A DNA stretch of 40,102 bases, taken from NCBI GenBank assembly GCA_903929035.1, contig CAIYTF010000149.1, forward strand, positions 1 through 40,102. The letters are read 5' to 3'. Made by a program: the position numbers and the translations under genes. The DNA comes from an uncultured Ignavibacteriales bacterium (GTDB lineage Bacteria > Bacteroidota > Ignavibacteria > Ignavibacteriales > Ignavibacteriaceae). Below the pieces are notes generated by a model. The model saw only the letters and a program-made list of their open reading frames with translations, had not been told where the DNA came from and searched no databases. Shown here piece after piece: positions 1,110 through 16,249 of this stretch (the first letter of the stretch is position 1; the number at the start of each line of letters is the position of its first letter).

Positions 1110-1973
1110 TTACCTTTCTAAAGTAATAAGTTGATTATTGTAATCAATGGACACTTTGCCAAATCTCTCCAACGCCGATTGACCGAAAAGCAATGGGGCG
1201 TTGGATGTATTGACAACCGAAGCCTCGACATCTTTAATGATTTTGTCTCCTATTTTCACCTTTCTAAGCCGGATTATCGCCCCTTCAGAAACTCTGCCGG
1301 TGGCATCCACAAAGCTTTGTTTCCGAATAAAATCGTCTCGGCTTATCTTGCCTTGGTCCAAAAGTATTTCAACTTCGGTAAGAGAAATTGAAATTGCGGA
1401 AGCACCTGTGTCGAAAATGAAATTCATCGGAATATCGTTAATTTCAATAGGAACTTCATATACACCGTTTCGTTTAGTCATCCTGACTGTGGTAACACTG
1501 CCGGTTGAACCTGCACCCGCCGGAACGTCCGAACGGTGAACCGGGGGTTGAGCGGTACTACCTGCATACTTTGCATATCGAGAAAAAGCCAACAAACTGT
1601 CCCCCAGATAATCCGCGCAAAATCGAGCCGAACCCGTTTTCAGCATTTCGGCATTAACGCATATTTTATTTTCGTCCAATACATAAGCATAATAAACTTT
1701 GGTTTTAGCCGATGACGGCGGTCTTCCTTTTTTGTCAAAAAACACCACAACCTTGCGTCCAGATAATTTTGAAGCAAGATAATCTTGTGACTCGGGACTG
1801 TCATATATTCCCAACATAATAATCAAGGAGCCATCACTCAATTGAATTGTATTGCCCGACAAGATAGAAGAAACATCTATATATTTCCGTTCCGGAGAAT
1901 TCCGGCAAGAAGAAAAAAAGCATATAAAAACTATTAATATGCTTATAAAACCCGTTTTCTTATTGGGGTTCAT
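1110..1973 (-). CDS. Lipoprotein: nuclease-fold (SNase-like) domain plus retropepsin-like aspartyl protease
   Basis: A 287-aa lipoprotein: residues 1-22 form a type II signal peptide ending FFSSC (Cys23). Residues about 31-138 resemble the OB-fold of thermonuclease (VSSILSGNTIQLSDG, then YAYVLDENKICVNAEMLKTG), but I cannot identify the full catalytic Arg/Glu set, so it may be a binding fold only. After a Pro/Ser/Gly linker (140-165), residues about 170-287 form a retropepsin-type (clan AA) domain with the active-site motif FIFDTGAS (Asp188) and a C-terminal LLFGQSALERFG segment like the second half of single-domain proteases; this type acts as a dimer. It is the last gene of the eight-gene operon and its start overlaps the OmpA/PEGA gene by 14 bp. 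Likely in the periplasm, anchored to a membrane. Domain calls are firm for the protease, moderate for the nuclease fold. Confidence 0.75.
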   Translation of the reverse strand: MNPNKKTGFISILIVFICFFSSCRNSPERKYIDVSSILSGNTIQLSDGSLIIMLGIYDSPESQDYLASKLSGRKVVVFFDKKGRPPSSAKTKVYYAYVLDENKICVNAEMLKTGSARFCADYLGDSLLAFSRYAKYAGSTAQPPVHRSDVPAGAGSTGSVTTVRMTKRNGVYEVPIEINDIPMNFIFDTGASAISISLTEVEILLDQGKISRDDFIRKQSFVDATGRVSEGAIIRLRKVKIGDKIIKDVEASVVNTSNAPLLFGQSALERFGKVSIDYNNQLITLER

Positions 1974-2913
1974 TGTCCTGCTCGGATTCTAAAAAGAAAG
2001 AAAAGTGATTATCCGCAAGCGAATCAACGTATATCTCGCCGGTTAAAGTTTTATATCCCGAGGAAGTTAATTTAACCTTGTATGACTTTGGGAAAAGAGT
2101 ACCATTATAGGGAACATTACCGACTAATTTGCCATCCAAAGCAAGAATAGCGGAACTCGGATAGCACTGAATATTTACGCTGTATTTCTTTTTCGCAACC
2201 AACAGCGGAGTATTGTCTGGCTTCACAGGTTCCGGAATGATGGGTTTATCTTTTTGTCCGATTGAGTTTCTATTTTTATCGTTATCCGTTGTATGCAACA
2301 AATTGCTTTCAATAAACTTGCTCAATTTGGGAATCACCTGAATAATTATTCTCTGATTATTAGCCTCAATTATAGTATCTCTTCCTACGCCCCCTATCCC
2401 GCTTCCTGAAATCATTGTTTCGCAAATTGAAGGATTAAATTTTATATTCTTTCTTAACCAAAAATTATACACTGATAAAGCACGCTCATAGCTTAGCTGG
2501 TTGTTCAAAGAATACTTATCTTTAGAAGCCATACCTTCTATCACAAGAATATATTTGATGCTGTCCGCCGCATATTTCACTTGCAGAGAGTCTATCATAG
2601 AACGCAGCGATGCACCAACATTTTCAAGATAGTTTTCGTCTATAGCAGGTATTTCGGATCTTCCCGTTGCAAAGCTAATTTGGCGCGTGAGGATATATCG
2701 TTTATATTCATTTTCATACTTAAAGTACTCTTGAGGCAAACCATTAACCGATTTCTGTATTTCTTCTATTTTTTTAAGCTTTTCTTCGGAAGCTTTTTTA
2801 GAGTCACTCAATAGTTTATAGCTTAAAACAAAAAGAACGAGAATCACGATAAAAAGCCCTGTCATTAAATCCACATAACTTGGCCAAAAGAAATCGCTGT
2901 GTTCTTTTTTCAT
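1960..2913 (-). CDS. MotB/ZorB-like stator protein with OmpA and PEGA domains
   Basis: A 317-aa protein with one N-terminal TM helix (about 13-34) in the motif WPSYVDLMTGLF. Asp15 sits at the place of the ion-carrying Asp of MotB/ExbD/ZorB. A short charged coil (36-60) leads to an OmpA/MotB peptidoglycan-binding domain (about 78-196; FATGRSEI, NNQLSYERALSVYNFWL, NNQRIIIQV). A Pro/Lys linker and a PEGA domain (about 243-312; YPSSAILALDGKLVGNVPYNG) follow. PEGA after OmpA is not part of classical MotB or ZorB. The ATG overlaps the stop of the upstream MotA/TolQ-like gene in an ATGA, the usual sign of a stoichiometric pair. Predicted role: the wall-anchored, ion-conducting B subunit of a rotary or force-transmitting 5:2 motor. 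Confidence 0.85.
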   Translation of the reverse strand: MKKEHSDFFWPSYVDLMTGLFIVILVLFVLSYKLLSDSKKASEEKLKKIEEIQKSVNGLPQEYFKYENEYKRYILTRQISFATGRSEIPAIDENYLENVGASLRSMIDSLQVKYAADSIKYILVIEGMASKDKYSLNNQLSYERALSVYNFWLRKNIKFNPSICETMISGSGIGGVGRDTIIEANNQRIIIQVIPKLSKFIESNLLHTTDNDKNRNSIGQKDKPIIPEPVKPDNTPLLVAKKKYSVNIQCYPSSAILALDGKLVGNVPYNGTLFPKSYKVKLTSSGYKTLTGEIYVDSLADNHFSFFLESEQDNEPQ

Positions 2914-4376
2914 CGCTCGATCGACTGTCCGTTTTTGGAAATAATAAAATAAAAGAATTCTTTAGGTCTGAAAATTGACGGAGTGATTGTTCTCCTTAGT
3001 TTTCTTAATTCGTGAACCATATCCCTAAATCCCTCCGAAATTTCGTGATTGTAATCAGGTGCTGAACTGGTGTTTTTATCGAGCTTCCTTGATATAGTTT
3101 CAAGGTTTTTGTTTACTGCATCCAATAATTTTAACTTATTAAGCGGATTCTCGTCTTTTGATACCGAAAAAGTATCTGATAATTCTTGCTGAAGTTTTTG
3201 AGTTAATCCCTGAAATTCTTTGCTGTAAGAAAGAGCAACATCCCTCACCTCGTTATCGGATTTATTCATAAATTCCTGAACTAACTGCCATCGCTTCTGC
3301 AATTCGGTAAGATGACCGGCCACCGAGCTGCCAAGCATTCCGTAGTTTTGATAACTTTGTTGTACTAATTCACCCACGCCGTTTATGTTTTCCTCAAATT
3401 TTCCCAATCTGTCAAGCAGTCCGGTGACTTTATCCAACATCCGATCGGAAGCCTCAAAACTTTTTTGAAGGTTCACGGCATATTGATTGAAACTATCAAA
3501 AATAGCTACGCTCTGATCAAGCTTATCCATTATCTTCAGATTTGCGTTTACCAAATTGGGCAAATTTATGTCGTTAAACCTCCTGATGAATTCCGTTTGT
3601 AACCTCATATTGTCGGTTATTTTAGGTATGGTACCGCTGAAATCCTCTATATTATCGGAAAACTCGGTATTAAATCTCTGAAGATGATTTTTGAACTCTT
3701 TAATATTATGCGAAAGCGAATTTTCCAACGTGGGCAATAGCTGAGCTTGTAGAAAATTGAAATAGGTGTTCTTTAAATCGTCTCTTATGCTTTTGGCTCT
3801 CTTGAAGAAATAACTATTATTTAAAGTCGTTAATAATAAACCGAAGAAACTTCCTATCATAGCGATCAAAACACCTCGCAAAAAGTCGTGTACGCCTACT
3901 TCTGATATTCCGCTTGCAGCAACGCCTGCTCCGGGTTGAGAGAATCCGCGCAGAAGGTAAAATATTCCGAAAATAACGCCGCCAAAAGTTCCCATTAACC
4001 CGACATAGAGCGGGAGAGAAACTGATGCTGCGATTTTATTTTCTTCGGATTCCGAAATTCTCTCGGCTATATCCCGCATAATATCATATTCAGCAGTTGT
4101 CCCTGAGTTGCTCCAAAGATAGTGATTTGTCGCCGTGATTATTGAAACGAATTTAGTGCTAATATCGTTTCTTAGTTTATCAATTTGAATTAGCTTCTGT
4201 TTATTTCCCGATTCAAATTGTATATCAGTTTCCTCTATGCTATATGGGGGTTCGTTTGATATTTTATCAGTATCGGGGAATAAGCGAGACATTTTCACGA
4301 TTTCTAACAGTGTTTTAATTGCAAAGTATATTTGCAAACCCACAACTAAGAGTAATAGAATTATCGCCGTAACCAT
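2910..4376 (-). CDS. ZorA/TolQ/MotA-like motor subunit with long cytoplasmic tail
   Basis: A 488-aa protein with TM1 at 2-26, a cytoplasmic segment, then TM2 (about 119-143, PLYVGLMGTFGGVIFGIFYL) and TM3 (about 165-188, FLRGVLIAMIGSFFGLLLT). The three-helix plan and the GLxGTFxG and GxxxAMxGSxxGL signatures are those of the ExbB/TolQ/ZorA family, not four-helix MotA. Residues about 195-445 are a long, mostly helical tail with heptad character, like the intracellular tail of ZorA. It has a good ribosome site (GGGAG, 8 nt before ATG), lies 16 bp after the preceding gene and overlaps its MotB/ZorB-like partner by 4 bp. Predicted A subunit of an ion-driven inner-membrane motor. TolQ and ExbB lack such a tail, so ZorA is the closest named comparison. 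Whether it takes part in phage defence is not shown. Confidence 0.85.
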   Translation of the reverse strand: MVTAIILLLLVVGLQIYFAIKTLLEIVKMSRLFPDTDKISNEPPYSIEETDIQFESGNKQKLIQIDKLRNDISTKFVSIITATNHYLWSNSGTTAEYDIMRDIAERISESEENKIAASVSLPLYVGLMGTFGGVIFGIFYLLRGFSQPGAGVAASGISEVGVHDFLRGVLIAMIGSFFGLLLTTLNNSYFFKRAKSIRDDLKNTYFNFLQAQLLPTLENSLSHNIKEFKNHLQRFNTEFSDNIEDFSGTIPKITDNMRLQTEFIRRFNDINLPNLVNANLKIMDKLDQSVAIFDSFNQYAVNLQKSFEASDRMLDKVTGLLDRLGKFEENINGVGELVQQSYQNYGMLGSSVAGHLTELQKRWQLVQEFMNKSDNEVRDVALSYSKEFQGLTQKLQQELSDTFSVSKDENPLNKLKLLDAVNKNLETISRKLDKNTSSAPDYNHEISEGFRDMVHELRKLRRTITPSIFRPKEFFYFIISKNGQSIER

Positions 4377-4392
4377 TTGTATCTCCCTTTTT

Positions 4393-5604
4393 TTATTGGA
4401 ATTTGATTTTAATCTTTTTAATAATTTGAAGTTTTCCGTTGCCTATGTCCTTAAGAACTCCTCGTTCTCCGCCATTGGCAACGATTTTTTGATCTGACGG
4501 TTTGGGATCGTCTTTATATTCACAAGCTGGTTGAAGACTTGTTCTTGCCGAATTCATCGCGAATCGATGACCGCCAATATTATCAAACAAAAGCTCGAAT
4601 TCAAGAGCATTTGTTTTTTTATTATGAACTATCTTGTAAAGTGAACGTCTCTGCACCTGCGGAGTGTTGTTTTTGCTTAAAAACCATCCATCCTGTTCAG
4701 GGCTTTCACTGTATAGAATTTGGGGCTTTTCTTCAACAATTTCAATAGGAACCGGCGTTGATTCATAAGGACGACTCAATTGTAACTCGCTCAACTTTTG
4801 CTGCAACGGCTCAATCGCTTTCCTTATTTTTTCATCGATATTACTCATCGATAAATTAGAAGTATTATAATTTGGCCTGACAGTACTCTCTTGCGTATGT
4901 CTGACATTTCGGATACCATCAAAGCTATTTCCTATTTCGTAGATTTTTAAAGAAATAAATATTGCAAACGAAATAAAAAAACATATCAATGTGATTACTC
5001 CCCAGAAAATATAATCCCACCATTCGGCGACATTTACAAGTACCTCAACCACAGTTGAAGGTAGTCTTTTTTCAAACTTTTGAATTATTGACTCTAATGA
5101 ATCTATATTGGTAATGTTTATTTTTGGAGGAATTGTTGAAACAGTTGTATTGAAAGAAGTTTTCAAATCCAAGGCTAATTTATTAATATCAGCCTTAATG
5201 GCAGCTATTGTCCCAAATCTCTTTGGATTTTTTGATTCGTTAGGAACCAATGCAATTATGGCAGAACAAAAATCGTCTATCAATTTTTCATTTTCGCGAA
5301 TCTTCCCAGTCAGTTTCTTTTTGAAATCTCCTTTTTTCTTTTCAATATCAATAATGATTTTGACATTATTTGGGAACTTGCCATTGAAAGAATTTTTAAG
5401 TTCACTTTCGTCCATTCCGATTGATATTTTATCAGCAATTTTTGGGTCTATTTCTTTAGCTAAATTTTTTGTTATTATTACATTTGCTTGTTCGCAAAAC
5501 CTTGAAAAATCTTGCTTTATTTCTTCTGATTGTCCGAATACCCAAAAAGGTAAAAATATTAGTACGAATAAATATCTCATAAGTATCTTTATATTAATTT
5601 TCAT
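4393..5604 (-). CDS. Signal-peptide, single-TM envelope protein of the motor/cytoskeleton operon
   Basis: Not a family I recognise. From the start chosen here (ATG at 5604) it is 403 aa: signal peptide (about 1-25, ending FWVFGQ), a Lys/Ile-rich helical domain of about 170 residues expected in the periplasm, a TM helix (about 198-220), and a C-terminal part of about 180 residues expected in the cytoplasm (low-complexity stretch, then a beta-rich end with GGHRFAMNSARTSLQP and NGGERGVLKDIG). The frame is open up to 5733, but the extra 43 residues lie inside the upstream ATPase gene and precede the signal peptide, so they are probably not translated. ATG 5580, 14 bp after that gene's stop, is an equally good start. 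With domains on both sides of the membrane it could link the motor pair to the cytoplasmic NTPases; this is inference. Confidence 0.7.
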   Translation of the reverse strand: MKINIKILMRYLFVLIFLPFWVFGQSEEIKQDFSRFCEQANVIITKNLAKEIDPKIADKISIGMDESELKNSFNGKFPNNVKIIIDIEKKKGDFKKKLTGKIRENEKLIDDFCSAIIALVPNESKNPKRFGTIAAIKADINKLALDLKTSFNTTVSTIPPKINITNIDSLESIIQKFEKRLPSTVVEVLVNVAEWWDYIFWGVITLICFFISFAIFISLKIYEIGNSFDGIRNVRHTQESTVRPNYNTSNLSMSNIDEKIRKAIEPLQQKLSELQLSRPYESTPVPIEIVEEKPQILYSESPEQDGWFLSKNNTPQVQRRSLYKIVHNKKTNALEFELLFDNIGGHRFAMNSARTSLQPACEYKDDPKPSDQKIVANGGERGVLKDIGNGKLQIIKKIKIKFQ

Positions 5605-8600
5605 CGTCTTCACCATCGTATAGAAGTTTACCAAGGTCAAAAAGCATTGAAACCAACGGATAGAAGAATAGTGGTTCATTAACGTGCTCGGAGTTTCTTG
5701 ATTTAAGTTTTCGGTCGGCAAGCCCTGCATCAAGGTATTGTAGAGTGTTCTCCTTTATTATTCCCTTATAAAATTCAAAATCTTTGGGCAGGCGAATTCC
5801 TAAATTCCTATTGAAAGAATATGATTTATCCATAGCAAAGAAAATATCTAGAAAATTATTAACATTATTCACTACTCCGTCTTGGAGGGAGTTGCTTATT
5901 TCCGAATACAAAAGAGACTCGAATTTTGGTGATTCTTCCCCGTAATAGGGAACTGTTTCCTGCGTATCTTTTGGTAGTGTCCCCTGCGCCCTGCTATCAG
6001 CGAGTAAATACAATCCTCCGATACTTGTGGCTTCTTTCTTATTCATAACTTGTTCTAAAGTTACTTTATATTTTGAATTGCCTGTAGAAATTTTGGTCAC
6101 AAAAGAATCAAGGAATCCATTTAATAGTTTTAGTCCATCCGACGGATCAATTATCGAGAGATATTTACTCCCGTTTCCGCTAATGCAAATAAACTGAGGT
6201 TTACATAACCCTTTTTCACATAGTAATTTGGTACAAAAATAAATAATAGAACTAAAATGAAAGAGAATAAGAAACTTTACTTTTGGATCACTGCTTAGGG
6301 TATTGCTGAACCCCAATAAATGGTCCCAAGTAAAATATAAATTGAATATGTCCTCAGATAATCCGCCGCTATTTGAATTATGTAGTATCAAGTCAATAGC
6401 TTTAGTAATAGTCCTGTCGTTCCTGTGTTTGTTTATTAAACTCTCAATAAACGTATTTCCATAATACTGTACAATACCTATCTTTTGTTGCTGTTTTTTC
6501 ACTAATCCTGGGTGCCAAAGTGAATTCCCCGCGAAATTAAACGATGTCCCGAATTGCGGTTCGCCGTTAATAAAAAAGCTGACATCGGTTGAGCCTCCGC
6601 CAATGTCTAAAGAAAGCACCGGGTTCTTGCTGTTGGCACGGCTCATCTGAGCATAATAATAAAAGGGAGCGCAGGATTCAGTTAGCGCGAATATGCGCCC
6701 GTTAGTATCATCTATTTTGAATATTCCATTGAGAGCGTTTACCCAAATCTGCCCGTAAATCACCTGATCATTTAAATACATACTCAAGGGCTTAAACCAT
6801 ATCATCTTGCATAAACGCGGATCGCCCCCTGTCAATAAAATCTTGTTTCTGACGATATATAGCAGTTCTTCGATAAATTTGGCAACCAACGCGGATATTT
6901 GAGTGTTGCCGATATTCCATTTTAAATTTGTTATTATATCTTCATCAGGCCGCCTTTGCTCTTTCTCGCAAGAAAATGATATATTTACATTTTCAAATAA
7001 ATTCAGATTACCTGTTCGTCCATTATTAGGACTTGAAATAGCGGTTCTCATTGGGAATTGGTATTTTGGCCATTTGGTTTCTTCACCAATGATAGATGGC
7101 ACAAATTCATGAATTAACCGCGGAATTAGGTGTCTTGTAACAAAGTTATTTCCTTTTTCATATTGGTCGGATAAAGAATTATTGGGGTCTTGATTCGATT
7201 TATTAAACAACACAGTTTGTAAGTCGTTACGTCCGATTTTAAGAGTTTCAGGCTTAGTGTTTTGAGTGCCACGATATTCTAACAGAGAAACATTCGTATT
7301 TGTTGTTCCAAAATCAACAGCAATATCATACGATCTATTTCCGAGAGGTATTTCACGCCATTTGGGAATAATTAAACCTTTCATTTTATTAATTGAAAGG
7401 TCATTTTCAGGAATATTTACCTCAATAAACCTGAGCGGAAAGTTTGTAGTGTAATAAATAGAACCTCCGCCATTATCAGGTGTTTTGGCAACTCTTATTC
7501 CTTTTGAAATACTTTTTTGCGCACCGGCGTTGAGTGCTATTTCCGTGTTGTTTTCATCGAATACTTTAAGTTCCACATACTCTTTTGTTGGTTCGTCATC
7601 AACAAGCATTATCTTGTAAAAGTCGTTAAATATCTTACCTCCGTCAACCACTTTGAACAAAGGGAAAAACGACATATATATATTACTGTTAGTAACTAAT
7701 TTTCCGGCGGTAGTATCAAGGGAATTGGAGTAGTAAAACTTTTTCAAAATAACAGGTTCGTTTCCTTGAATCGGTATCTTTAATTCAACCTGATATCCGT
7801 TGTTAAGCTTTTTTATACTTAAATTTCTTTGCAGAGTAGCTTCGTCAAAGAAATCGAAATATTCCTTTTTTATCGGCAGTAAAAATCCATTATCTTCTTC
7901 TTTATTGATACCGGTGTAATTCGGGATAATAAAACTGTTGTCATTAACGGGGTAACGTAATTCAATGAGTTGATCTTCCAAAAAATCGTCTGTAACCAGA
8001 TATGGATATTTTATACCATTCCCCGGTAAAATTCTCTCGTTTATACCACCAATTGGACCGGCATTTTTGGGCACTTTGATACCCGAATTCTTAGTGCCTA
8101 AATGGTCTTCGCCATCGCGAAGAACAAGCGGAATGCCGGTCAAATAACTCGGATTTTTCCAATTTTGCGGTATTTGTAAAGCCAACGGAGAATTACCCAT
8201 ATTGGGACTAACGCTATTCTGCACAAAGATCAAGCTATTGCAAATTGTGAGCAATGCTCCCTGATCATCCACGAGCGAGTTAAAATCTGGAAGTGATCCG
8301 TCTGGTTCATTTTTAATGATTTTCTTTACTTGCAAGTTTAAAGGAGGATTGACAATCTTATTCACGACCAAATTATTGGTTAAATACTTAAATACAGAAG
8401 AAGCTTCGCGTGCGATTTGGCCATTTTGAAGAGAAAATGTCTTATAGATTGCCAGAATAAAGTTTGGGTCCCTGCTCCATATCGGTGCGACTTTTGAAAA
8501 ATAGGTATTTCCGTCATCCTTTCTTATTTCGAAATCAACCAAGTCCGCTTTCGTGAAAAATCCGGTGAAAGGCGAGGTGCCGCCGAATACTTTGTCATTA

Positions 8601-9058
8601 ACATTGAATAAATAAATATTTGGGTTTGAATTCAAACTCGAGTTATTCACGACATACTTGCGCAACACTTCTCCTAACTGTTGATGCGCGGAATCTGTAG
8701 ATGAAATTAGATTATTGATATGATGTTCAAAATTCCACATAGCAATTGAAATCGTATGACCTGCGGATTTATGTAGTGCAAGGTTATATAGCAACTCGAA
8801 CATATCAAAACATTCAGAAACTAATTTTTCGAAAACAGTATTCTGATTTTTCCCTATATTCTTGAGTGCCATATCAAAAGCCGTTTCAAACATATGCATC
8901 CGGGCAAACGGTGAAGGAATTGCTGTAAGCAGCTTATTGATATTCCCGCCGGCGGGATCGATTATATTATTAATAATTGATTGAGAATATTGTTGCGAAC
9001 CCGACCAGTAGGTGTTTTGAACATTTTTAGCATTTTGAATTGTTAATTTGTGTCCCAT
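5594..9058 (-). CDS. Giant Hsp70/actin-superfamily ATPase with ~550-aa N-terminal extension
   Basis: 1154 aa, no signal peptide or TM, so cytoplasmic. The actin/Hsp70 ATPase core begins about residue 575: phosphate-1 loop AVDFGTTNTNVSLLEY (about 580-595), phosphate-2 loop LSLDIGGGSTDVSFFI (about 815-830) and adenosine-type motif ICISGNGSKYL (about 957-967). Between them is a larger insert than in Hsp70. The first 550 residues are unlike any chaperone domain I know and are rich in beta-like segments; residues 1-130 look helical. There is no Hsp70 substrate-binding domain. The general plan (large bacterial Hsp70-like ATPase of about 1000 aa) recalls SrfB-type proteins, but I cannot confirm membership. 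A clear GAGG site precedes ATG. It follows the tubulin-like gene by 7 bp, so an actin-type and a tubulin-type NTPase are made from neighbouring cistrons. Confidence 0.85.
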   Translation of the reverse strand: MGHKLTIQNAKNVQNTYWSGSQQYSQSIINNIIDPAGGNINKLLTAIPSPFARMHMFETAFDMALKNIGKNQNTVFEKLVSECFDMFELLYNLALHKSAGHTISIAMWNFEHHINNLISSTDSAHQQLGEVLRKYVVNNSSLNSNPNIYLFNVNDKVFGGTSPFTGFFTKADLVDFEIRKDDGNTYFSKVAPIWSRDPNFILAIYKTFSLQNGQIAREASSVFKYLTNNLVVNKIVNPPLNLQVKKIIKNEPDGSLPDFNSLVDDQGALLTICNSLIFVQNSVSPNMGNSPLALQIPQNWKNPSYLTGIPLVLRDGEDHLGTKNSGIKVPKNAGPIGGINERILPGNGIKYPYLVTDDFLEDQLIELRYPVNDNSFIIPNYTGINKEEDNGFLLPIKKEYFDFFDEATLQRNLSIKKLNNGYQVELKIPIQGNEPVILKKFYYSNSLDTTAGKLVTNSNIYMSFFPLFKVVDGGKIFNDFYKIMLVDDEPTKEYVELKVFDENNTEIALNAGAQKSISKGIRVAKTPDNGGGSIYYTTNFPLRFIEVNIPENDLSINKMKGLIIPKWREIPLGNRSYDIAVDFGTTNTNVSLLEYRGTQNTKPETLKIGRNDLQTVLFNKSNQDPNNSLSDQYEKGNNFVTRHLIPRLIHEFVPSIIGEETKWPKYQFPMRTAISSPNNGRTGNLNLFENVNISFSCEKEQRRPDEDIITNLKWNIGNTQISALVAKFIEELLYIVRNKILLTGGDPRLCKMIWFKPLSMYLNDQVIYGQIWVNALNGIFKIDDTNGRIFALTESCAPFYYYAQMSRANSKNPVLSLDIGGGSTDVSFFINGEPQFGTSFNFAGNSLWHPGLVKKQQQKIGIVQYYGNTFIESLINKHRNDRTITKAIDLILHNSNSGGLSEDIFNLYFTWDHLLGFSNTLSSDPKVKFLILFHFSSIIYFCTKLLCEKGLCKPQFICISGNGSKYLSIIDPSDGLKLLNGFLDSFVTKISTGNSKYKVTLEQVMNKKEATSIGGLYLLADSRAQGTLPKDTQETVPYYGEESPKFESLLYSEISNSLQDGVVNNVNNFLDIFFAMDKSYSFNRNLGIRLPKDFEFYKGIIKENTLQYLDAGLADRKLKSRNSEHVNEPLFFYPLVSMLFDLGKLLYDGEDDEN

Positions 9059-9065
9059 AGAATCC

Positions 9066-10505
9066 TCAAATTAGGTTAGAGATTTTTTTCACAAATGTGG
9101 ACTGTGAAGCTTGATACATTACATCGATAAATCTACCATTAACAGTACTTTGCTTTGACTTCACTTTGGAGCATTCGTCCACGAACTGATTTGCTCCGAG
9201 TGCAGAACTTCCAAAAAACTTTTTTTCGATAGGATTTCCGTTTATAAGGTTACTCAAATCTTTCTCGGTGACCTGCCCAAACGGAGAAAAACCGCGTTGA
9301 TTTCGCTCAAGTTCAATCAGCCATTGATTAAAGTGTTTATTAATAAACTCACTGAATGATTTATAAAAACCGGAAATAAAAAAATCTTTTGTGAACCCGT
9401 TATTCACCGCGAAAGTTGACCCAACTTGGGCTTCCACCGTTACCTTGAAAATATCGGTGAGTTTTAGGGATACCAAAGAAGCGGCAATAACATCGTTCGT
9501 GTCTTTACCCAAATCGGAGAATCGAAGGTGTTGATTGTCATTTTGAACGGAAAATTCCTTATAAATCTTATTGTCTGTAAGGTTGGATTCAAGAATTTGC
9601 ATAAAATCCACGATGCTTAAAGCCGCCGCGACTTCAATAAAATTAGCATCGTTCTGCTGCTGCCCGCCTCCCTGAATATTCTCATAAGTTCCGGATTGTT
9701 GAGAATCACCGATATAATAAAGCGCGTTCACTCTATCAATGTTATTTTGATAATAGTTCAACGCTGCAATAGATTTTGTATAGAAAGCGGTGGAATCGAT
9801 TCTGCTCTCATCGTTTTTTGGAAGTGTAAAATATGGGAGAACTGTTATCGCTCCAATCGGAATGGTTGATAAAATTCCTTGATTTGCTATATTGCCGGCA
9901 CTGGGTTTAAAATTATTCATTAAAAGAGGAAATCCGGCGGCACCGGTTCCTCCGAATATTGAACTTATGATGAAAACCCTATCTCGCGGTTGAATTATAG
10001 AACCAAAATATTGAAATTCTTTAGTCTTGATTAATTCATCCAACACAATACATCCTACATTCGGCGAACCCAAAAAACCATAGGTAAGTGAGTCATCGAG
10101 ATTATTATCAGAATATAGCAGTTCAAGCAGAGATTTTGTTTCGAAATCTAAAAGAAAAGGAAAATTAATATAATCGCGTAGCGTTTTACCCGTTGTACTT
10201 TGAAATTTGATGGTGAAGTTAGTTCCCCAGCCATTCACGCCGCCTTGATGAGCGAGATCTCCCAAAGAAAGAATTTTATTATGGAAGAATGAACCATTAA
10301 GATCGGGGATTTGATTTCGCAAATCACGATATGCTTTCAAAAGATTCTCTGTCCTTTGAGTGTCTGCGTTTTGTTCATCTGTATCAATTATAATAGGGAT
10401 AATTTCACTCGCGTTAACTTGAACACCCGAAGCCAATAAATTTCCAAGCGATTTTAGCACTCTCGCGCCCGTTCCGCCGATGGCGAAAATAAACAATCTC
10501 GACAT
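9066..10505 (-). CDS. Tubulin-like GTPase (Tubulin_2-type)
   Basis: A 479-aa cytoplasmic protein. It starts MSRLFIFAIGGTGARVLKSL, a Rossmann-type glycine loop like T1 of tubulin/FtsZ. Residues about 184-191 read FGGTGAAG, matching the tubulin signature loop T4 (GGGTGSG, here with one Gly fewer). IIPIIIDTDEQNADTQ (35-50) fits the T2 region. The family resembles Pfam 'Tubulin like' (PF13809), whose function is unknown, rather than FtsZ, which is shorter and has a C-terminal tail peptide not seen here. The C-terminal part (about 330-479) lacks an obvious FtsZ-type catalytic loop, so polymerisation cannot be assumed. A very strong Shine-Dalgarno (AGGAGGAAA) precedes the ATG. It is the third gene of the operon, directly before the actin-like gene. 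Confidence 0.8.
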   Translation of the reverse strand: MSRLFIFAIGGTGARVLKSLGNLLASGVQVNASEIIPIIIDTDEQNADTQRTENLLKAYRDLRNQIPDLNGSFFHNKILSLGDLAHQGGVNGWGTNFTIKFQSTTGKTLRDYINFPFLLDFETKSLLELLYSDNNLDDSLTYGFLGSPNVGCIVLDELIKTKEFQYFGSIIQPRDRVFIISSIFGGTGAAGFPLLMNNFKPSAGNIANQGILSTIPIGAITVLPYFTLPKNDESRIDSTAFYTKSIAALNYYQNNIDRVNALYYIGDSQQSGTYENIQGGGQQQNDANFIEVAAALSIVDFMQILESNLTDNKIYKEFSVQNDNQHLRFSDLGKDTNDVIAASLVSLKLTDIFKVTVEAQVGSTFAVNNGFTKDFFISGFYKSFSEFINKHFNQWLIELERNQRGFSPFGQVTEKDLSNLINGNPIEKKFFGSSALGANQFVDECSKVKSKQSTVNGRFIDVMYQASQSTFVKKISNLI

Positions 10506-10516
10506 TTAATTTCCTC

Positions 10517-10909
10517 CTATTTAACCAAAAATCGCAACGGTGTATATTTGGCGCGCGGCGAACCCCAGCATAACATACAAGAAGCAATAAAATACATAAC
10601 CGCCGCGTATAGCAGATTAATTAAGGCAAAACTAAGTACATCGCCGTCAAGCCAAGCGGTTTGCAATTTACTAATGGCGATACCGTAAGCAATTAAAGAA
10701 ACAATTAGGGAGTTTATCAGCATAATCAAAAACCATCTTTTCATTTTGAACCAGTGAAGAAAGAATTTATTTAACACATAATAGTATATTATCGCTAAAA
10801 TAAATGAACAAACGATTAGAAAAAATCCGGTTGTCGTGTAAACCTCGTCCCAATCGGGCGGATGCACACCGTGTAAAAAACCGTAAATGCTAATAAAGAA
10901 GTCTTGCAT
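10517..10909 (-). CDS. Small integral membrane protein, three TM helices
   Basis: A 130-aa protein with three hydrophobic segments (about 25-46, 57-78 and 90-112), no signal peptide and a basic C-terminal tail (GSPRAKYTPLRFLVK). No family recognised. It sits between the vWA-like lipoprotein (8 bp gap) and the tubulin-like gene (11 bp gap), so it is co-transcribed with them and may be the inner-membrane anchor for the tubulin-like GTPase. That role is inference from position only. Conservation of this small gene beside tubulin-like genes elsewhere would be the useful support. Confidence 0.7.
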   Translation of the reverse strand: MQDFFISIYGFLHGVHPPDWDEVYTTTGFFLIVCSFILAIIYYYVLNKFFLHWFKMKRWFLIMLINSLIVSLIAYGIAISKLQTAWLDGDVLSFALINLLYAAVMYFIASCMLCWGSPRAKYTPLRFLVK

Positions 10910-10917
10910 ATCGACCC

Positions 10918-12183
10918 TTAGTTTTTGTTAATGATTAAATCAAAATTGAAATAGTTGCTGTCGCTATTTAATTCACCGTAAGCGTTCTGCATACCTGTGA
11001 TAATTTCTTTCAATAGGAATGTTTTCAGGTTGTTGCCCTGATTAAGATTGCTATCGTCATTCGTTGATAAACTATCCAAATCAATCGGTTTATTCTTCAA
11101 TCCAAGGTGAACAATGTTTTTATCAAGGCGAAACTGAGAAACCGAGACCTCGATATAGTGCGAATGCGCCTTGTCTTTAGGGTGGAACCTTGAGCCTAAA
11201 ACAGAATGCGGATATATATTACAATAATTTATGTTACAGCTTGCCGATGAAGCATCCTTGTTCTGTTGTAGATACGAAATCTCCCGCGCATACTTTGGAA
11301 TGGAATTTAAGTCAACGCCCAATGTAATCTTCAGATTGTTGTTCTTCAGACTTACATTCGTAAATTCACCATTCTTGAAACGGAATCTGCCTTCAGGGCT
11401 ATTCGAGTAGTATAATATATCGAATGGAATTTTGGATGACCCAAATCCGAGTTGAGCTTCCTGCAGCGGCTTGAATACCGGACTTCTTTCGATTTGTCTC
11501 CTGAAACTGATTAGATTATTTTTATCTCCCAGAACCCAAATAAAATATGGACGGGTCACTTTGTTGGGAGCTTTAAAACTTTTCCCAAAAGAAGGATAAT
11601 ATATTCCTGAAAAATCGCTTGTTAGCCTATATAACGAAACCGCAAGATTTTTCTTTGGGGCATTATTAAAAATTGTGTTAAACCTGCTTTGTATAGCTGG
11701 TATTATAGAAGGCGATTTAATATTCACCACAAAGTCGGAAATAAGAATTGAAATTTTGTTTTGAGAGTGTTCATCAACTAATTTGTTTACGATATCATCG
11801 ATTGGAGAAGTTGATCCGGTGGCTATTTTACCGGTCAGAATTTTTGTGTTGAAATCATAAGCAGTGCAGGATATTGGTTCAAATCGAGGTATATTATTTT
11901 TTATAACCGAAGCGAAATATTTAACGGAGTCTATCACAAGTCCGGTTGTGTCTTTAGACATCTTATCCAATTCGGCGATAAAATTTGTGACATCGGACTT
12001 AAACTGCGAACCATTTAAATAACCCTGCATACTTGCGCTTGTTTCAAGTATCACGTTCACTGAAACTTTGGGTTTCTGCAAAGAAACCACGGACATAGCC
12101 GCCGGAGGGTTGCTTCGTTTGCACCCTGCAATAACAAAAAACATAACCAATATACTAAACAGAAAAAGAACCAAAGGCTTCAT
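10918..12183 (-). CDS. vWA-like lipoprotein, first gene of the operon
   Basis: From ATG 12183 it is 421 aa: a type II signal peptide ending FFVIAGC (Cys21), then a von Willebrand A-like fold. The first strand and metal-site motif read VNVILETSASM, where Glu replaces the usual first Asp of the DxSxS MIDAS; a later strand ISILISDFVVNI gives a typical second acidic position. The rest (about 200-400) is beta-rich and unassigned. Upstream in-frame ATGs at 12192 and 12222 only lengthen the N-region; AGGA stands 11 nt before 12183. As a lipoprotein it is extracytoplasmic, attached to a membrane. vWA domains usually carry protein-protein contacts; a partner could be the other lipoprotein at the end of the operon. 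A Bacteroidetes-type promoter lies just upstream. Confidence 0.75.
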   Translation of the reverse strand: MKPLVLFLFSILVMFFVIAGCKRSNPPAAMSVVSLQKPKVSVNVILETSASMQGYLNGSQFKSDVTNFIAELDKMSKDTTGLVIDSVKYFASVIKNNIPRFEPISCTAYDFNTKILTGKIATGSTSPIDDIVNKLVDEHSQNKISILISDFVVNIKSPSIIPAIQSRFNTIFNNAPKKNLAVSLYRLTSDFSGIYYPSFGKSFKAPNKVTRPYFIWVLGDKNNLISFRRQIERSPVFKPLQEAQLGFGSSKIPFDILYYSNSPEGRFRFKNGEFTNVSLKNNNLKITLGVDLNSIPKYAREISYLQQNKDASSASCNINYCNIYPHSVLGSRFHPKDKAHSHYIEVSVSQFRLDKNIVHLGLKNKPIDLDSLSTNDDSNLNQGNNLKTFLLKEIITGMQNAYGELNSDSNYFNFDLIINKN

Positions 12184-12245
12184 AAGAAACATATTCCTAA
12201 TCAAATTAATAAAAACTAACAACAGTGTAGCACATATTTAAGCAA

Positions 12246-12564: not shown

Positions 12565-12597
12565 AACCACTCATAAGAGTTTATCTTATAAGTGGTT
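12565..12597 (-). terminator. Strong hairpin downstream of the GIY-YIG gene
   Basis: A 14-bp stem (AACCACTCATAAGA with TCTTATAAGTGGTT; one G-T pair) and a 5-nt loop. On the minus strand it is followed by a T-rich stretch, so it probably ends transcripts coming from the GIY-YIG/tRNA side before they reach the operon. Confidence 0.55.
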
Positions 12598-12602
12598 ATA
12601 GT

Positions 12603-12656
12603 GTGGGCACTCAGGTATTTGAACCCCGGACCCTCCCGACTCGTCGGGATGCACTA
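12603..12656 (-). pseudogene. Decayed partial copy of tRNA-Val fused to the GIY-YIG 3' end
   Basis: The T-arm and 3' acceptor side match the tRNA-Val at 12998-13072 at 28 of 32 positions (12603-12634 against 12997-13028), same orientation. The anticodon arm is replaced by a simple hairpin (CCCGACGAGTCGGG on the minus strand). D-arm-like sequence continues into the last codons of the GIY-YIG gene, whose stop TAG lies inside it. The 5' acceptor strand is missing, so it cannot be a working tRNA. Confidence 0.7.
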
Positions 12657-12914
12657 AACTACTGATTGCAAATACTCCAATGCTTTCTTGGAATTCTTCA
12701 ACGATTTCAAGTATGTTTCTAATTCCATAGCTTCTTTTTTTGAACCGGACATTTTAGATATTTCAATCTGCCACAGTTTAGAAGTCGCTGTAAATCCCTT
12801 ATGTTTGCGATTATGCTGAGCAATTCGTTGTGATAGGTTTGAAGTAAATCCAATGTATCTTCTTCCTTTTTCTGAAAGCAAAATATAAACAGTATAATCA
12901 GCAGAATTTCCCAT
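12654..12914 (-). CDS. GIY-YIG domain protein (small putative endonuclease)
   Basis: An 86-aa single-domain protein. The GIY-YIG core is present as YTVYILLSEKGRRYIGFT, followed by LSQRIAQHN, which supplies the conserved Arg and His region, and a later AMELETYL with an acidic residue at about the place of the catalytic Glu. Family knowledge: stand-alone GIY-YIG proteins of about 80-100 aa (UPF0213-like) are common and often multicopy in Bacteroidetes; their function is unclear. The last codons (LQSVV-stop) are made from tRNA D-arm-like sequence, so the natural C-terminus may have been replaced. It is flanked by the real tRNA-Val on one side and a broken copy on the other, which suggests the gene arrived as a small mobile unit at the tRNA. 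Confidence 0.8.
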   Translation of the reverse strand: MGNSADYTVYILLSEKGRRYIGFTSNLSQRIAQHNRKHKGFTATSKLWQIEISKMSGSKKEAMELETYLKSLKNSKKALEYLQSVV

Positions 12915-12958
12915 ATTTCGAATAGGCCTTGATAAAATTTACAAAAATAGAAAATGAA

Positions 12959-12991
12959 AATAGCCTGTAATTCAATGAATTACAGGCTATT
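12959..12991 (-). terminator. Terminator of the tRNA-Gly/tRNA-Val transcript
   Basis: A perfect 15-bp stem (AATAGCCTGTAATTC / GAATTACAGGCTATT) with a 3-nt loop, six bases beyond the tRNA-Val 3' end. On the minus strand it is followed by a T-rich stretch. Confidence 0.8.
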
Positions 12992-12997
12992 TATTAG

Positions 12998-13072
12998 TGG
13001 GTGCTCAGGGATTTGAACCCCGGACCCCCTGCTTGTAAGGCAGGTGCTCTGAACCAACTGAGCTAAGCACCC
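12998..13072 (-). tRNA. tRNA-Val (anticodon UAC)
   Basis: A 75-nt cloverleaf: acceptor GGGTGCT/AGCACCC, D-arm with GCTCAGTTGGTTCAGAGC, anticodon stem CCTGC/GCAGG with loop CTTACAA (anticodon TAC), T-arm GGGGTTCAAATCCCT, discriminator A. CCA is not encoded. It is the second gene of the tRNA-Gly/tRNA-Val pair. A decayed partial copy lies at 12603-12656. Confidence 0.95.
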
Positions 13073-13108
13073 CTTTACTTTTTAATACTACTAACTTAAT
13101 GTAAAGTG

Positions 13109-13181
13109 AGCGAGCAACGGGACTCGAACCCGCGACCCTCAGCTTGGGAAGCTGATGCTCTACCAACTGAGCTACGCTCGC
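13109..13181 (-). tRNA. tRNA-Gly (anticodon CCC)
   Basis: A 73-nt cloverleaf: acceptor GCGAGCG/TGCTCGC with a G-T pair, D-arm GCTCAGTTGGTAGAGC, anticodon stem TCAGC/GCTGA around loop TTCCCAA (anticodon CCC), T-arm with GGGTTCGAGTCCC, discriminator T. CCA is not encoded. It is first in the pair, behind the promoter at 13194-13225. Confidence 0.93.
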
Positions 13182-13270: not shown

Positions 13271-16249
13271 ATGAACATAGTCGATAAGCTTTTTATAGAG
13301 GATATTTTCAGCAGCAGAATAAGGGCATTCCAAAAATTAATGAAGTTTCGGATTAGGAATATTTTGCTTGTTTCAAGTTTATATGACTATTATTTGTTTG
13401 AAGAGGATGGTCAGCTATATGAATTAATACGGCAGGAATACAGGGTATCGAATCTTAGTCAGGCTCCGGAGTTAGTTCACGTTACTTCCGGCACTGAAGC
13501 ATTGGAACTCGCGTTATTGGAGGACCGGTATGATGTTGTAATTGTAACGCTGCACATAGATGATATGCACCCGGTTAAATTCACTCAAATGCTGAGGCAG
13601 GCTGGAATGGATATTCCGGTAATTTTGCTCGCTTATGATAACAAGGAACGAGAAGAACTTTCACGCGGTTATGATGATTCAATTTTTGATCGAGTTTATA
13701 TATGGCAGGGGGACTATCGATTATTAATTGCAATATTTAAGAGCCTTGAGGATAAATTAAATGTTGAAAACGATACGCGCGCTGTCGGTGTGCAGGTGAT
13801 TATACTTGTAGAAGATAATGTTAAATTTTATTCTTCTTATCTGCCAATCATATACAGAGAAATATTTGACCAGTCTCAACGGCTCATATCGGAGGGAATA
13901 AATCTCACAAATAAGTTTTTGAGATTGCGGGCACGCCCCAAAATATTACTTGCAACAAATTATGAAGAAGCCTGGTCATTTTTCCAAAAATATAAAGAAA
14001 ATGTTCTTGGTGTGATTACCGATGTTAATTTTAGATGCAATGGGGTGAAAGACCCTGAGGCGGGGATTAAGCTCGCGATGCATATTAAAAGCGAACAGAG
14101 TGATATTCCGATTCTAATGCAGTCCGGCAATCCTGAAATGGCGTTTGTTGCCGCGGAGATGGGCGTTTCATTTATTCACAAAGGTTCGCGCTCGCTGCTT
14201 CGCGAATTGCGAATGTTTATGCTCAAGAATTTTGGATTTGGCGATTTTGTTTTCCGGTTAATCGATGGACGCGAAGTTGGACGTGCTCAAAATCTGCATT
14301 CTTTCTTTGAAAAAATAATGTCTGTTCCTGATGAAAGTATTTTTTATCACGCGGAGAGAAATCATTTTTCTAACTGGCTGAAAGCGCGAACTGAATTTGG
14401 GCTGTCGTTTCAGCTCCGTCCAATGAAAGTCACTGATTTCAAGTCTGTAAGTGAATTGCGTAATCTAATTATTGATTCTGTTAAAAGCTACAGGGAGATG
14501 CAAAGCAGGGGAATAACTACAGATTTCAACAAAGATACTTTTGATCATAAATACGGATTTGCCCGTTTAGGTTCGGGCAGCTTGGGTGGAAAAGCCCGTG
14601 GGTTAGGATTTATTAATTCACTGCTTAACTGCCGGCAGTTTGGTAATAGCTTCCCGGGTGTTGAGATTTATGTTCCTGCTGCAATTGTTTTGGCAACCGA
14701 TATTTTTGATAAGTTTATGGAGGATAACGGAATTGAGTATTCTCAATTGAATAACTTAACGGATGAGGATATATTAACGCGGTTTCTTCATAATACACGA
14801 TTCCACGGTGACATAGTTTACAAGTTAAGGGATTTTCTTGAAATTATGCAGGAACCATTGGCAGTGCGTTCATCAAGCCTGCTGGAAGATTCGCAGTTCC
14901 AGCCGTTCGCGGGGGTGTATGAAACTTTTATGATAGCTAATAACAATCCTGATTTTGAAGCAAGGCTGCGGGAATTATTACAAAGTATTAAAAACGTTTA
15001 CGCGTCAACATTCTTTAAAAAGGCGCGGGACTATATGCAGTCAACTGAGTATAGCCTTGAAGAAGAGAAAATGGCCGTGATTATTCAACGGCTTGTCGGC
15101 AAGAGACATAACGACCGGTTTTATCCTGATATAGCTGGTGTCGCGAAGTCCTATAACTTTTACCCGGTTGCACCGCAAAAGGCACAAGACGGAGTTGTAT
15201 ATACAGGGCTTGGATTAGGCAAAATTGTTGTAGATGGCGGAAACTCTGTCCGGTTTTGTCCAAAATATCCAAAACATCTTTTGCAGTTTTATTCTGCCAA
15301 AGAAACTATTCGAAATTCACAGCAATCATTTTATGCTTTGGATTTGAAAGAAAAATTCAATTTATCGGAAATCGTACCTCCCTCTAATTTAGTAAAAGAA
15401 TATGACGTAGCTTCTGCTGAAGCTGACGGGACGCTTATACATATTGCATCAACTTATTCGCCTGAAAATGATGCAGTTTACGATGGTCTATCCCGCGCAG
15501 GGAAAAGGGTGGTGACATTTGCTCCGATATTAAAACAAAAAACTTTTCCTTTGCCTGAAATTCTTATGTCATTATTATCAACCGGAACGTGGGGGATGGG
15601 TACACAGGTTGAAATTGAGTTCGCGGTTGAGATGAACGATCATCCTGATAAACCGCCTGAATTTGCAATGCTGCAGATGAGACCATTAGTAATTTGCTTA
15701 GATGACGAAGAACTTCATATTGAAGCATACAAAAAAGAACTGTTGATTTGTGAAAGCACGCGGATTCTCGGAAACGGTTCAATCAATGATATTTATGATG
15801 CCGTAGTTGTAGATTTTGACAGGTTTGATAGAGGGAAAAGCAGGGAGGCTGCAATTGAAATAAGCAAGTTTAACGAGAAGTTATTCATTTCAAAGCGGCC
15901 ATATCTGTTAATAGGCGTTGGCAGATGGGGAAGCCTTGATCCATGGTTAGGTATTCCCGTAACTTGGGAACAAATTTCCGGTGCCCGCCTTATTGTAGAA
16001 TCCGGATTCAAGGATTTTGATGTACAGCCCTCACAAGGTTCACACTTTTTCCAAAACCTTACATCTTTCAGGGTTGGATATATGACTGTCAATATCGCCG
16101 ATAAAACAGGTTTCATTGACTGGGAATGGTTAAAGGAACAGCCTGCAGAGCAGAAACTACAATTTACATCTCATATCGTTTTTGAAAAACCTATTAAAGT
16201 AAAATTGAACGGGCACAAAGGCATAGGTGTAATTATAAAACCGGATTAA
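13271..16249 (+). CDS. REC-REC-PEP-synthase-like (PPDK_N ATP-grasp) signalling protein
   Basis: A 992-aa cytoplasmic protein. Residues about 28-165: degenerate receiver-like domain (VVIVTLHIDDM, no Asp at the acceptor position). Residues about 172-325: second receiver with acceptor Asp251 (LGVITDVNF) and HK near 303-304 at the Lys position, but with a long insert (about 190-222). Residues about 430-806: the ATP-binding domain of PEP synthase/pyruvate phosphate dikinase (SGSLGGKARGLGF; EPLAVRSSSLLEDS; ending LQMRPLVI). The phosphohistidine swivel domain and the PEP/pyruvate TIM barrel of those enzymes are absent; instead there is a unique C-terminal domain of about 185 residues (YLLIGVGRWGSLDPWLGIPV). 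So it is not a metabolic PEP synthase. Phosphorylation-controlled phosphotransfer is an inference. Single gene, convergent with clpP (14 bp between the ends). Confidence 0.8.
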   Translation: MNIVDKLFIEDIFSSRIRAFQKLMKFRIRNILLVSSLYDYYLFEEDGQLYELIRQEYRVSNLSQAPELVHVTSGTEALELALLEDRYDVVIVTLHIDDMHPVKFTQMLRQAGMDIPVILLAYDNKEREELSRGYDDSIFDRVYIWQGDYRLLIAIFKSLEDKLNVENDTRAVGVQVIILVEDNVKFYSSYLPIIYREIFDQSQRLISEGINLTNKFLRLRARPKILLATNYEEAWSFFQKYKENVLGVITDVNFRCNGVKDPEAGIKLAMHIKSEQSDIPILMQSGNPEMAFVAAEMGVSFIHKGSRSLLRELRMFMLKNFGFGDFVFRLIDGREVGRAQNLHSFFEKIMSVPDESIFYHAERNHFSNWLKARTEFGLSFQLRPMKVTDFKSVSELRNLIIDSVKSYREMQSRGITTDFNKDTFDHKYGFARLGSGSLGGKARGLGFINSLLNCRQFGNSFPGVEIYVPAAIVLATDIFDKFMEDNGIEYSQLNNLTDEDILTRFLHNTRFHGDIVYKLRDFLEIMQEPLAVRSSSLLEDSQFQPFAGVYETFMIANNNPDFEARLRELLQSIKNVYASTFFKKARDYMQSTEYSLEEEKMAVIIQRLVGKRHNDRFYPDIAGVAKSYNFYPVAPQKAQDGVVYTGLGLGKIVVDGGNSVRFCPKYPKHLLQFYSAKETIRNSQQSFYALDLKEKFNLSEIVPPSNLVKEYDVASAEADGTLIHIASTYSPENDAVYDGLSRAGKRVVTFAPILKQKTFPLPEILMSLLSTGTWGMGTQVEIEFAVEMNDHPDKPPEFAMLQMRPLVICLDDEELHIEAYKKELLICESTRILGNGSINDIYDAVVVDFDRFDRGKSREAAIEISKFNEKLFISKRPYLLIGVGRWGSLDPWLGIPVTWEQISGARLIVESGFKDFDVQPSQGSHFFQNLTSFRVGYMTVNIADKTGFIDWEWLKEQPAEQKLQFTSHIVFEKPIKVKLNGHKGIGVIIKPD

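Follow-up and report, generated by a model that had tools for sequence, protein, structure and literature searches.

Nucleases at tRNA genes

SegB of phages T4 and T6 is a free-standing GIY-YIG homing endonuclease encoded among phage tRNA genes (PMC2988022; PMC13096335), and the available text of the latter paper reports experiments in which the tRNA was amplified in tandem together with the nuclease gene. From group I introns of tRNA genes, a homing endonuclease specific for the tRNA anticodon region is described in the accessible part of PMC3984707. No description of chromosomal units of the kind considered below was found in bacteria by a literature search whose scope excluded most subscription papers and bioRxiv. 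The 2006 survey of GIY-YIG proteins (PMC1564403) shows no tRNA-gene context in the text covered by a term search, and a mention of GIY-YIG in a paper on SOS in Bacteroidetes (PMC8565304) concerned, in the part available, an exonuclease.

We analysed a stretch of 40,102 nucleotides from an uncultured Ignavibacteriales bacterium, here called the window, and compared it with related genomes. A small GIY-YIG gene beside a tRNA-Val gene in the window probably belongs to a phylum-wide set of isotype-specific, homing-like mobile units at tRNA genes, which would cut their targets and be copied by recombination.

The unit beside tRNA-Val

The order on the minus strand is tRNA-Gly, tRNA-Val, a terminator-like stem, the GIY-YIG open reading frame, a D-arm-like stretch, a hairpin, the 3' part of tRNA-Val and a second terminator-like stem. 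The tRNA-Gly(CCC) gene (13108..13181) lies upstream of the intact tRNA-Val(TAC) gene (12997..13072), the presumed target, and this Gly-Val pair is kept in several relatives. The tRNA-Val gene is followed by an intrinsic-terminator-like hairpin of 16 pairs with a T-rich tail (12958..12992), and a second hairpin of this type (12565..12597) follows the remnant; both are additional to the preliminary description of this locus. The reading frame (12654..12914) encodes an 86-aa single-domain GIY-YIG nuclease (PF01541 match, E 7e-16).

The preliminary description had reported a same-orientation repeat of the tRNA-Val 3' side. A recount confirms it: positions 45-76 of the intact gene and window positions 12603..12634, comprising the variable region, T arm and acceptor, are identical at exactly 28 of 32 bases. 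The gapped local alignment of tRNA-Val with its surroundings has a score of 47, compared with 20 for the best of 200 shuffles, and its significant part covers tRNA-Val positions 46-76 only. The shuffles and the control tRNA loci considered below reject a chance repeat as the source of the copy. The anticodon arm of the remnant is indeed replaced by other sequence, namely the hairpin TCCCGACGAGTCGGGA (12634..12649). The stop codon of the nuclease gene had been placed in tRNA-like sequence. In the window itself this assignment is weak: the stop TAG (12654-12656) falls within GTTTAGTGCA, resembling the D-loop GGTTCAGAGCA, in a D-arm-like remnant (12650..12664) that was recognised by reading the sequence. 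It is strengthened by locus L012, where the stop occupies the same D-loop position (GGTTTAGCGCA) and the remnant aligns to tRNA positions 15-76. Only tRNAs reach the Rfam gathering score in this stretch, and a scan for sigma-70-like promoters gave results no better than shuffles.

At least one match to the 86-aa protein in its own genome was listed by one search, and two were counted by another; with one or two matches, expansion of this nuclease within the genome was rejected. Three other GIY-YIG frames occur there, in open frames of 622, 579 and 139 aa, the last of which looks like a different GIY-YIG type and has no tRNA.

The nuclease

Residues Y10, Y20, G22, R30, H34, E66 and K70 are invariant across 13 aligned proteins. 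Among them, Y10, Y20, R30 and E66 are those that we take to be the catalytic Tyr, Tyr, Arg and Glu of the GIY-YIG domain. The AlphaFold2 model of the 86-aa protein consists of one compact GIY-YIG domain (mean pLDDT 84), and a separate DNA-binding domain appears from the model to be absent. Homing enzymes usually carry such an additional domain, and a domain of about 80 residues is, to our knowledge, smaller than the known homing enzymes. The closest proteins by sequence profile are UPF0213/YhbQ-like, PDB entries 1zg2 (E 9.5e-16) and 1ywl (E 9e-13). The same two structures are the top Foldseek matches, at E-values of only 2e-3 and 1e-2. The next relative, both by sequence and by fold, is the branched-DNA nuclease SLX1 (7cq2, 6seh). 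Searches of NCBIfam and PHROGs gave no clear family.

A tblastn search with P0001 against 50,697 phage records produced no match at E 1e-3, and no match to the nuclease was confirmed in viral contigs. A phage origin of the window nuclease lineage was rejected on these grounds.

Among the domains collected below, 151 of 162 lie in stop-free stretches of at least 70 aa. At loci L019, L024, L033 and L037 the nuclease frame has no stop codon across the upstream tRNA, and automatic annotation could therefore yield proteins whose N-termini are tRNA-encoded.

Distribution and linkage to tRNA genes

The 86-aa protein has matches in 50 of 59 genomes (its own and 58 others of the same genus, family and order). 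Occupancy is patchy, with 0-16 matches per genome among the matches listed. The regions fetched around listed matches (123 loci) gave at least 162 domains at no fewer than 121 places in 48 genomes. After removal of 14 of the 121 places with a flank shorter than 300 bp on one side, a tRNA gene was found within 50, 100, 200 and 400 bp of the domain at 60, 73, 83 and 85 of the 107 listed places, respectively. As an expectation, the 43 tRNAs of genome G026 with 200 bp on each side span about 0.5% of that genome. All 109 tRNAs within 300 bp of a domain at the listed places are on the same strand as the domain.

No tRNA occurs within 400 bp at 22 of the 107 listed places. Rfam was run on 20 of these (all except L015 and L114), and six of the 20 have a tmRNA upstream, on the same strand and within about 340 bp. 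Several other tRNA-less places sit in tRNA-linked clades of the domain tree (L036, L026 and L091 among the Asn types). Near the members of one small clade, L118, L139, L121, L134 and L100, no RNA gene was found; this clade may be something else than tRNA-linked units.

A wider search of the phylum, the order included, yielded matches in 95 of 148 genomes. Among the first 40 places listed from outside the order, a tRNA lies no more than 300 bp away at 33, in all 33 cases on the same strand, and 31 of the 33 tRNA-linked places contain a partial tRNA copy. At L351 (G106:C16), also outside the order, the GIY-YIG gene lies immediately before a same-strand gene for RNase P RNA, which may be one more RNA gene serving as a target.

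As a test of prediction, named genomes were searched with an alignment of nucleases of the Asn type. The search recovered 43 loci from Ignavibacteria, Chlorobiaceae, Salinivenus, Bacteroidales, Saprospiraceae and relatives, and one WOR-3 genome. At 30 of the 43 there is a tRNA within 300 bp, assigned as tRNA-Asn(GTT) in 29 cases and unassigned in one; 29 of the 30 are on the same strand as the nuclease gene and one is on the opposite strand. Nine of the 43 loci are DNA already used, some of it in the query alignment, and removal of these repeats leaves 24 of 34 loci with a tRNA within 300 bp (23 Asn, one unassigned). Several tRNA-less loci lie at contig ends; L289 of Saprospiraceae and L286 of WOR-3 have full flanks and no tRNA.

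Partial tRNA copies and arrays

An extra partial copy of the neighbouring tRNA, with a score above all 200 shuffles, was observed at 87 of the 90 listed places with a tRNA within 400 bp. GIY-YIG genes with tRNA-like tails, which the preliminary description had suggested seeking in related genomes, are thus present, L012 being one example. The control consisted of the 30 best-scoring of 86 tRNA matches in two genomes, with 700 bp searched on each side. Partial copies were found at 1 of 14 control loci in the window's genome G000, that one being the window's own Val site, and at 3 of 15 in G026; one of the 30, L216, was lost with no tRNA at the expected place. When the copies were compared with same-isotype tRNAs of other genomes, the local tRNA was best in 51 of 75 cases, tied in 17 and lost in 7. 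Since it is best or tied in 68 of 75 cases, the copies derive from the local gene or are homogenised with it.

Two layouts were observed. In one, the intact tRNA is followed by the nuclease gene and a 3' remnant (L051, L012, the window). In the other, a 5' remnant and the nuclease gene precede the intact tRNA (L052, L054, L055, L056), and in some of these upstream-type units the reading frame starts near the anticodon loop. The window unit had been viewed as a tiny mobile element that copies a tRNA 3' end. The frequent partial copies and the variable occupancy agree with mobility, but the restriction to the 3' end does not hold, as 5' parts are copied too. In many remnants one side of the acceptor stem is missing, so that folding into a complete tRNA is impossible.

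At 29 of the 121 listed places there were two or more domain hits, a count that includes a few close pairs (one of them in G019, spaced by 105 bp) resembling one broken gene. The domains in some arrays are 100% identical, and the spacing of units in arrays is mostly 300-400 bp. In locus L350 (G105:C34) eight GIY-YIG units follow one another in tandem at intervals of about 364 bp; by our reading, the 3' half of an initiator-Met-like tRNA stands at their start, and no intact tRNA was found at this locus. Nuclease-free arrays occur in G026 at L243, L232 and L234, where 11, 5 and 4 hairpin-armed parts of tRNA-Asn, tRNA-Asp and tRNA-Pro, respectively, lie beside the intact tRNA. At about 600-753 of L093, directly downstream of a nuclease unit, there is a repeat that occurs many times, at scattered positions, in G009 and G034.

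Hairpins in place of tRNA segments

The tRNA-Val copy in the window had been described as decayed. It is a remnant, but the replacement of the anticodon arm recurs in relatives, which argues against random decay. Hairpins of the scored types are present at 54 of 87 listed places. Replaced intervals were analysed in 70 records from 50 places at which a hairpin could be located between tRNA flanks; the window hairpin, whose left flank is too diverged, is outside this set. Within one isotype, the same intervals are found replaced in different genomes. Pro, Val, Lys, elongator Met and Gly have the 17-nt anticodon arm replaced, and at some Pro, Asp, Val and Met sites 17 nt are exchanged for 17 nt in register. 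The interval 51-59 is replaced in Asp, where two loci also have the anticodon arm replaced. The corresponding intervals are 22-32, 36-47 and 57-61, as well as 14-27 and 24-33, in Asn, 59-61 and 13-18 in initiator Met, and 39-56 and 11-18 in Cys. This recurrence could result from shared ancestry of the units.

Among 100 substituted segments picked regardless of pairing, some of them copies within one array, 53 form end-to-end hairpins with stems of 5 or more, and 48 are hairpins at p <= 0.005 when compared with shuffles of the same segment. The stems vary in sequence (TCCCGA, CTCCGAC, TCCGCC, TGGCGC), an indication that what is maintained is base pairing and not a particular motif, although the interval records were chosen for pairing.

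The pattern TCCCGA-N(1-12)-TCGGGA occurs at four places in G000, and the reversed control pattern at none. G026 contains 37 such palindromes, 24 of them within 1 kb of a tRNA (positions compared by eye); TCCCGA..TCGGGA palindromes also occur away from tRNAs. Hairpin tails are visible in the Chlorobiaceae, Salinivenus and Bacteroidales loci L278, L279 and L288. The palindrome TCCCGAAACAAGTTCGGGA is found at nine places in the G002 chromosome, with locus L202 having no tRNA. The literature searched, again with most subscription papers and bioRxiv outside its scope, contained no description of the substitution of hairpins for tRNA arms.

Isotype specialisation

At 68 of 92 listed places the nearest protein in another genome is found at the same isotype, whereas 1000 shuffles gave a mean of 5.7 and a maximum of 17; 27 of 119 rows with no tRNA or tmRNA label were omitted from this comparison. 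In the tree of 119 domains (two of 121 rows, short or low-scoring, were dropped) the isotype labels require 49 changes, compared with 86.4 after shuffling (0 of 200 shuffles as low); the genome of origin, used as a label on the same tree, needs 106. The tree is based on few columns and has many weak forks, with 13 of 116 inner branches starred. Most enzyme branches keep to one kind of tRNA.

The isotypes do not match at 24 of the 92 places, and 15 of these mismatches are, by our grouping, between related kinds: Val, elongator Met and Lys; Ser isoacceptors; Leu isoacceptors; and Ala with tmRNA. The tRNA-like part of tmRNA is of the alanine type, and the Ala-tmRNA pairing suggests that tRNA sequence is recognised by the nuclease. 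The tmRNA case L141, which pairs with the Ser type, is a counterexample. Common descent of units that seldom move could likewise produce the grouping by isotype.

Empty and filled sites

At the tRNA-Asp gene located, by reading of the flanks, behind the same upstream gene, the terminator alone follows the tRNA in G030, while in G002 of the same genus it is followed by five 315-bp nuclease units with identical domains; in G026 a nuclease-free array precedes the tRNA. Given the empty site in G030, the pair of nuclease and remnant is dispensable at tRNA-Asp. For tRNA-Val, a comparison of strains for an empty site had been proposed, and it gave a partial answer: the site is unoccupied in G045 and occupied in G052 of the same genus, but the downstream flanks of the two differ. 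The tRNA-Val locus of G055 is near a contig end and unusable as an empty site. The initiator-type Met site holds only a remnant in G034, and a remnant with a nuclease unit in G009 of the same genus.

The neighbouring operon

An operon at 1110-12222 of the window (minus strand) contains aspartyl protease (1110-1973) and PEGA/OmpA (1960-2913) domains and a weak Tubulin_2 similarity (9066-10505). The gene at 13271-16249 (plus strand) encodes a 992-aa protein with response-regulator, DUF5752-like and PPDK_N-like ATP-binding domains, and it is matched in 58 of 59 genomes, its own included. Synteny at the window site is not conserved in G001 of the same genus, where an acetyl-CoA-synthetase-like gene (PF00501) precedes the 13271 homologue and there is no tRNA. 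The operon gene at 10918-12222 has a match in 0 of 40 relatives. The lack of matches to this gene and the different neighbourhood in G001 fit an insertion (island) or a rearrangement at this spot.

The preliminary description had hinted that the operon could belong to an island. These two observations agree with that, but no integrase or recombinase was found among the 15 window proteins scanned, and the unit, being about 0.4 kb, is too small to be the carrier of the operon. The same description had named as contrary evidence related nuclease genes with no tRNA-like tail, or an operon conserved in all relatives; the relatives do have such tails, and the operon gene tested is not conserved.

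Proposed mechanism and alternatives

The unit would consist of a stand-alone GIY-YIG gene and a partial copy of its target tRNA, often with an arm or a loop replaced by a GC hairpin; the target would be a tRNA gene, sometimes tmRNA. By analogy with SegB, we infer that the nuclease cuts the tRNA gene of its own isotype, or a structure formed by that gene, and that a copy carrying the unit then serves as template for recombinational repair of the break, with the tRNA sequence common to both providing the homology. The unit would thereby be copied in beside the tRNA, with the intact tRNA retained, and recombination between tRNA parts, again on the SegB analogy, would produce arrays of units in tandem as well as derivatives without the GIY-YIG gene. 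As for the hairpin, it probably either labels the site recognised by the nuclease or abolishes that site: it may remove the site from the extra copy, or may itself be recognised by the enzyme.

The intact presumed target adjoins the nuclease gene, and cutting it would damage the host in the absence of protection by flanking context or repair. Requirements for flanking sequence or DNA structure, low expression, and efficient repair are possible ways for the intact tRNA to escape. The single-domain protein, having no DNA-binding domain of the usual kind, leaves the source of specificity unexplained, which is an argument against homing-like units. A bolder and more tentative possibility is a gene-drive-like radiation through the phylum, with lineages on some twenty kinds of tRNA and tmRNA, in which the recoded and hairpin-armed partial copy of the target would be immune to the enzyme and serve as a homology arm. 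If so, the hairpin interval would read out the cleavage site of each lineage from sequence.

The hairpins might instead be separate mobile palindromes (REP/MITE-like) that insert into redundant tRNA copies, the GIY-YIG gene merely sharing the neighbourhood. Palindromes away from tRNAs and GIY-less arrays point in this direction, but in different genomes the hairpin returns to certain tRNA intervals of each isotype, the nuclease tree is arranged by isotype, and the palindrome is present only four times in G000 and is concentrated near tRNAs in G026 (24 of 37 within 1 kb), so that we consider this explanation unlikely. No more probable is a conflict at the RNA level, in which the GIY-YIG protein would cut one particular tRNA, mature or precursor, and the tRNA-like RNA with the hairpin substitution would be an uncleavable decoy or antitoxin, somewhat as in type III toxin-antitoxin systems. 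Such a conflict is compatible with the isotype grouping of the nucleases, with the exchange of arms for hairpins in register, 17 nt for 17 nt, and with tandem hairpin-tRNA arrays that have or lack the nuclease. However, a tRNA-cleaving toxin needs no adjacency to a tRNA gene, yet most of the nuclease genes adjoin one; many remnants without one acceptor side cannot fold whole, and the empty site shows the pair to be dispensable there. GIY-YIG enzymes, moreover, are mostly known as DNases. In type III systems, RNA repeats serve as the antitoxin of a ToxN-like RNase; the fold here is GIY-YIG.

A module useful to the host, with a SegB-like nuclease that drives amplification or repair of the tRNA locus and is kept for tRNA dosage, seems distinctly improbable. 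The multi-domain places (29 of 121 listed), the arrays with identical domains and the precedent of SegB at tRNA-Tyr in the available text of PMC13096335 favour it. What is amplified, however, is a defective tRNA piece and not an intact tRNA, and the occupancy of the genomes is patchy. We regard as very improbable the remains of an integrase-driven island that decayed at a tRNA-Val attachment site and left the GIY-YIG gene as a passenger. Repeats of tRNA 3' ends are classic attachment sites, and the neighbouring operon gene was found in none of the 40 relatives. On the other hand, compact units recur at many isotypes, mostly 300-400 bp apart in arrays, copies of 5' parts occur, and a scan of 15 window proteins revealed no integrase; the tRNA linkage, the partial copies and the isotype grouping largely refute this origin. 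The least probable candidate is a degenerate group I intron in the anticodon loop. GIY-YIG genes do occur in such introns, an endonuclease for the tRNA anticodon region is cited in the accessible part of PMC3984707, and the frame of some upstream-type units starts near the anticodon loop, but the tRNA is duplicated and not interrupted. At Rfam gathering scores, 20 loci contained only tRNA and no ribozyme, which refutes the intron for the loci tested.

tRNA genes are essential and conserved, and parasites at them that do not kill their host raise the question how a target is cut and yet kept. The family would comprise many natural enzyme-target pairs, in which a domain of some 80 residues has an isotype specificity that can be read off. 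It may account for annotated GIY-YIG proteins with tRNA-like tails or with N-termini derived from tRNA, as well as for tandem repeats beside tRNA genes.

Comparison with known systems

The UPF0213/YhbQ-like proteins share with the present nuclease sequence and fold similarity and the same small single-domain build; no link of these proteins to tRNA genes was found in the literature searched. Integrase elements use tRNA 3' ends as attachment sites, and here, too, a tRNA 3'-end repeat flanks the insert. The units differ from such elements in their size of about 0.3-0.4 kb, the copies of 5' parts, the hairpin substitution, and the absence of a recombinase among the 15 window proteins. With the group I introns of tRNA genes, as far as the available account of them goes, they would share a selfish nuclease aimed at the anticodon region, but no ribozyme was found in the window stretch or in the 20 loci scanned, and the tRNA is left uninterrupted.

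The closest likeness is to SegB, in the GIY-YIG domain with its presumed catalytic Tyr, Tyr, Arg and Glu, in the free-standing frame outside an intron (no ribozyme in 20 loci), and in the location among tRNA genes, beside a presumed target and with varying occupancy. Homing is a property of SegB, and would be one of the present units with the tRNA as the putative target. The separate DNA-binding domain has no counterpart in the 86-aa protein. In the parts of the SegB papers available, no report of hairpin-substituted partial tRNA copies was found; SegB is described there as phage-borne and with no isotype preference, whereas the present genes are chromosomal, encode a smaller single-domain protein and are grouped by isotype. 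By this analogy, the units would resemble phage SegB, but in a chromosomal and smaller form.
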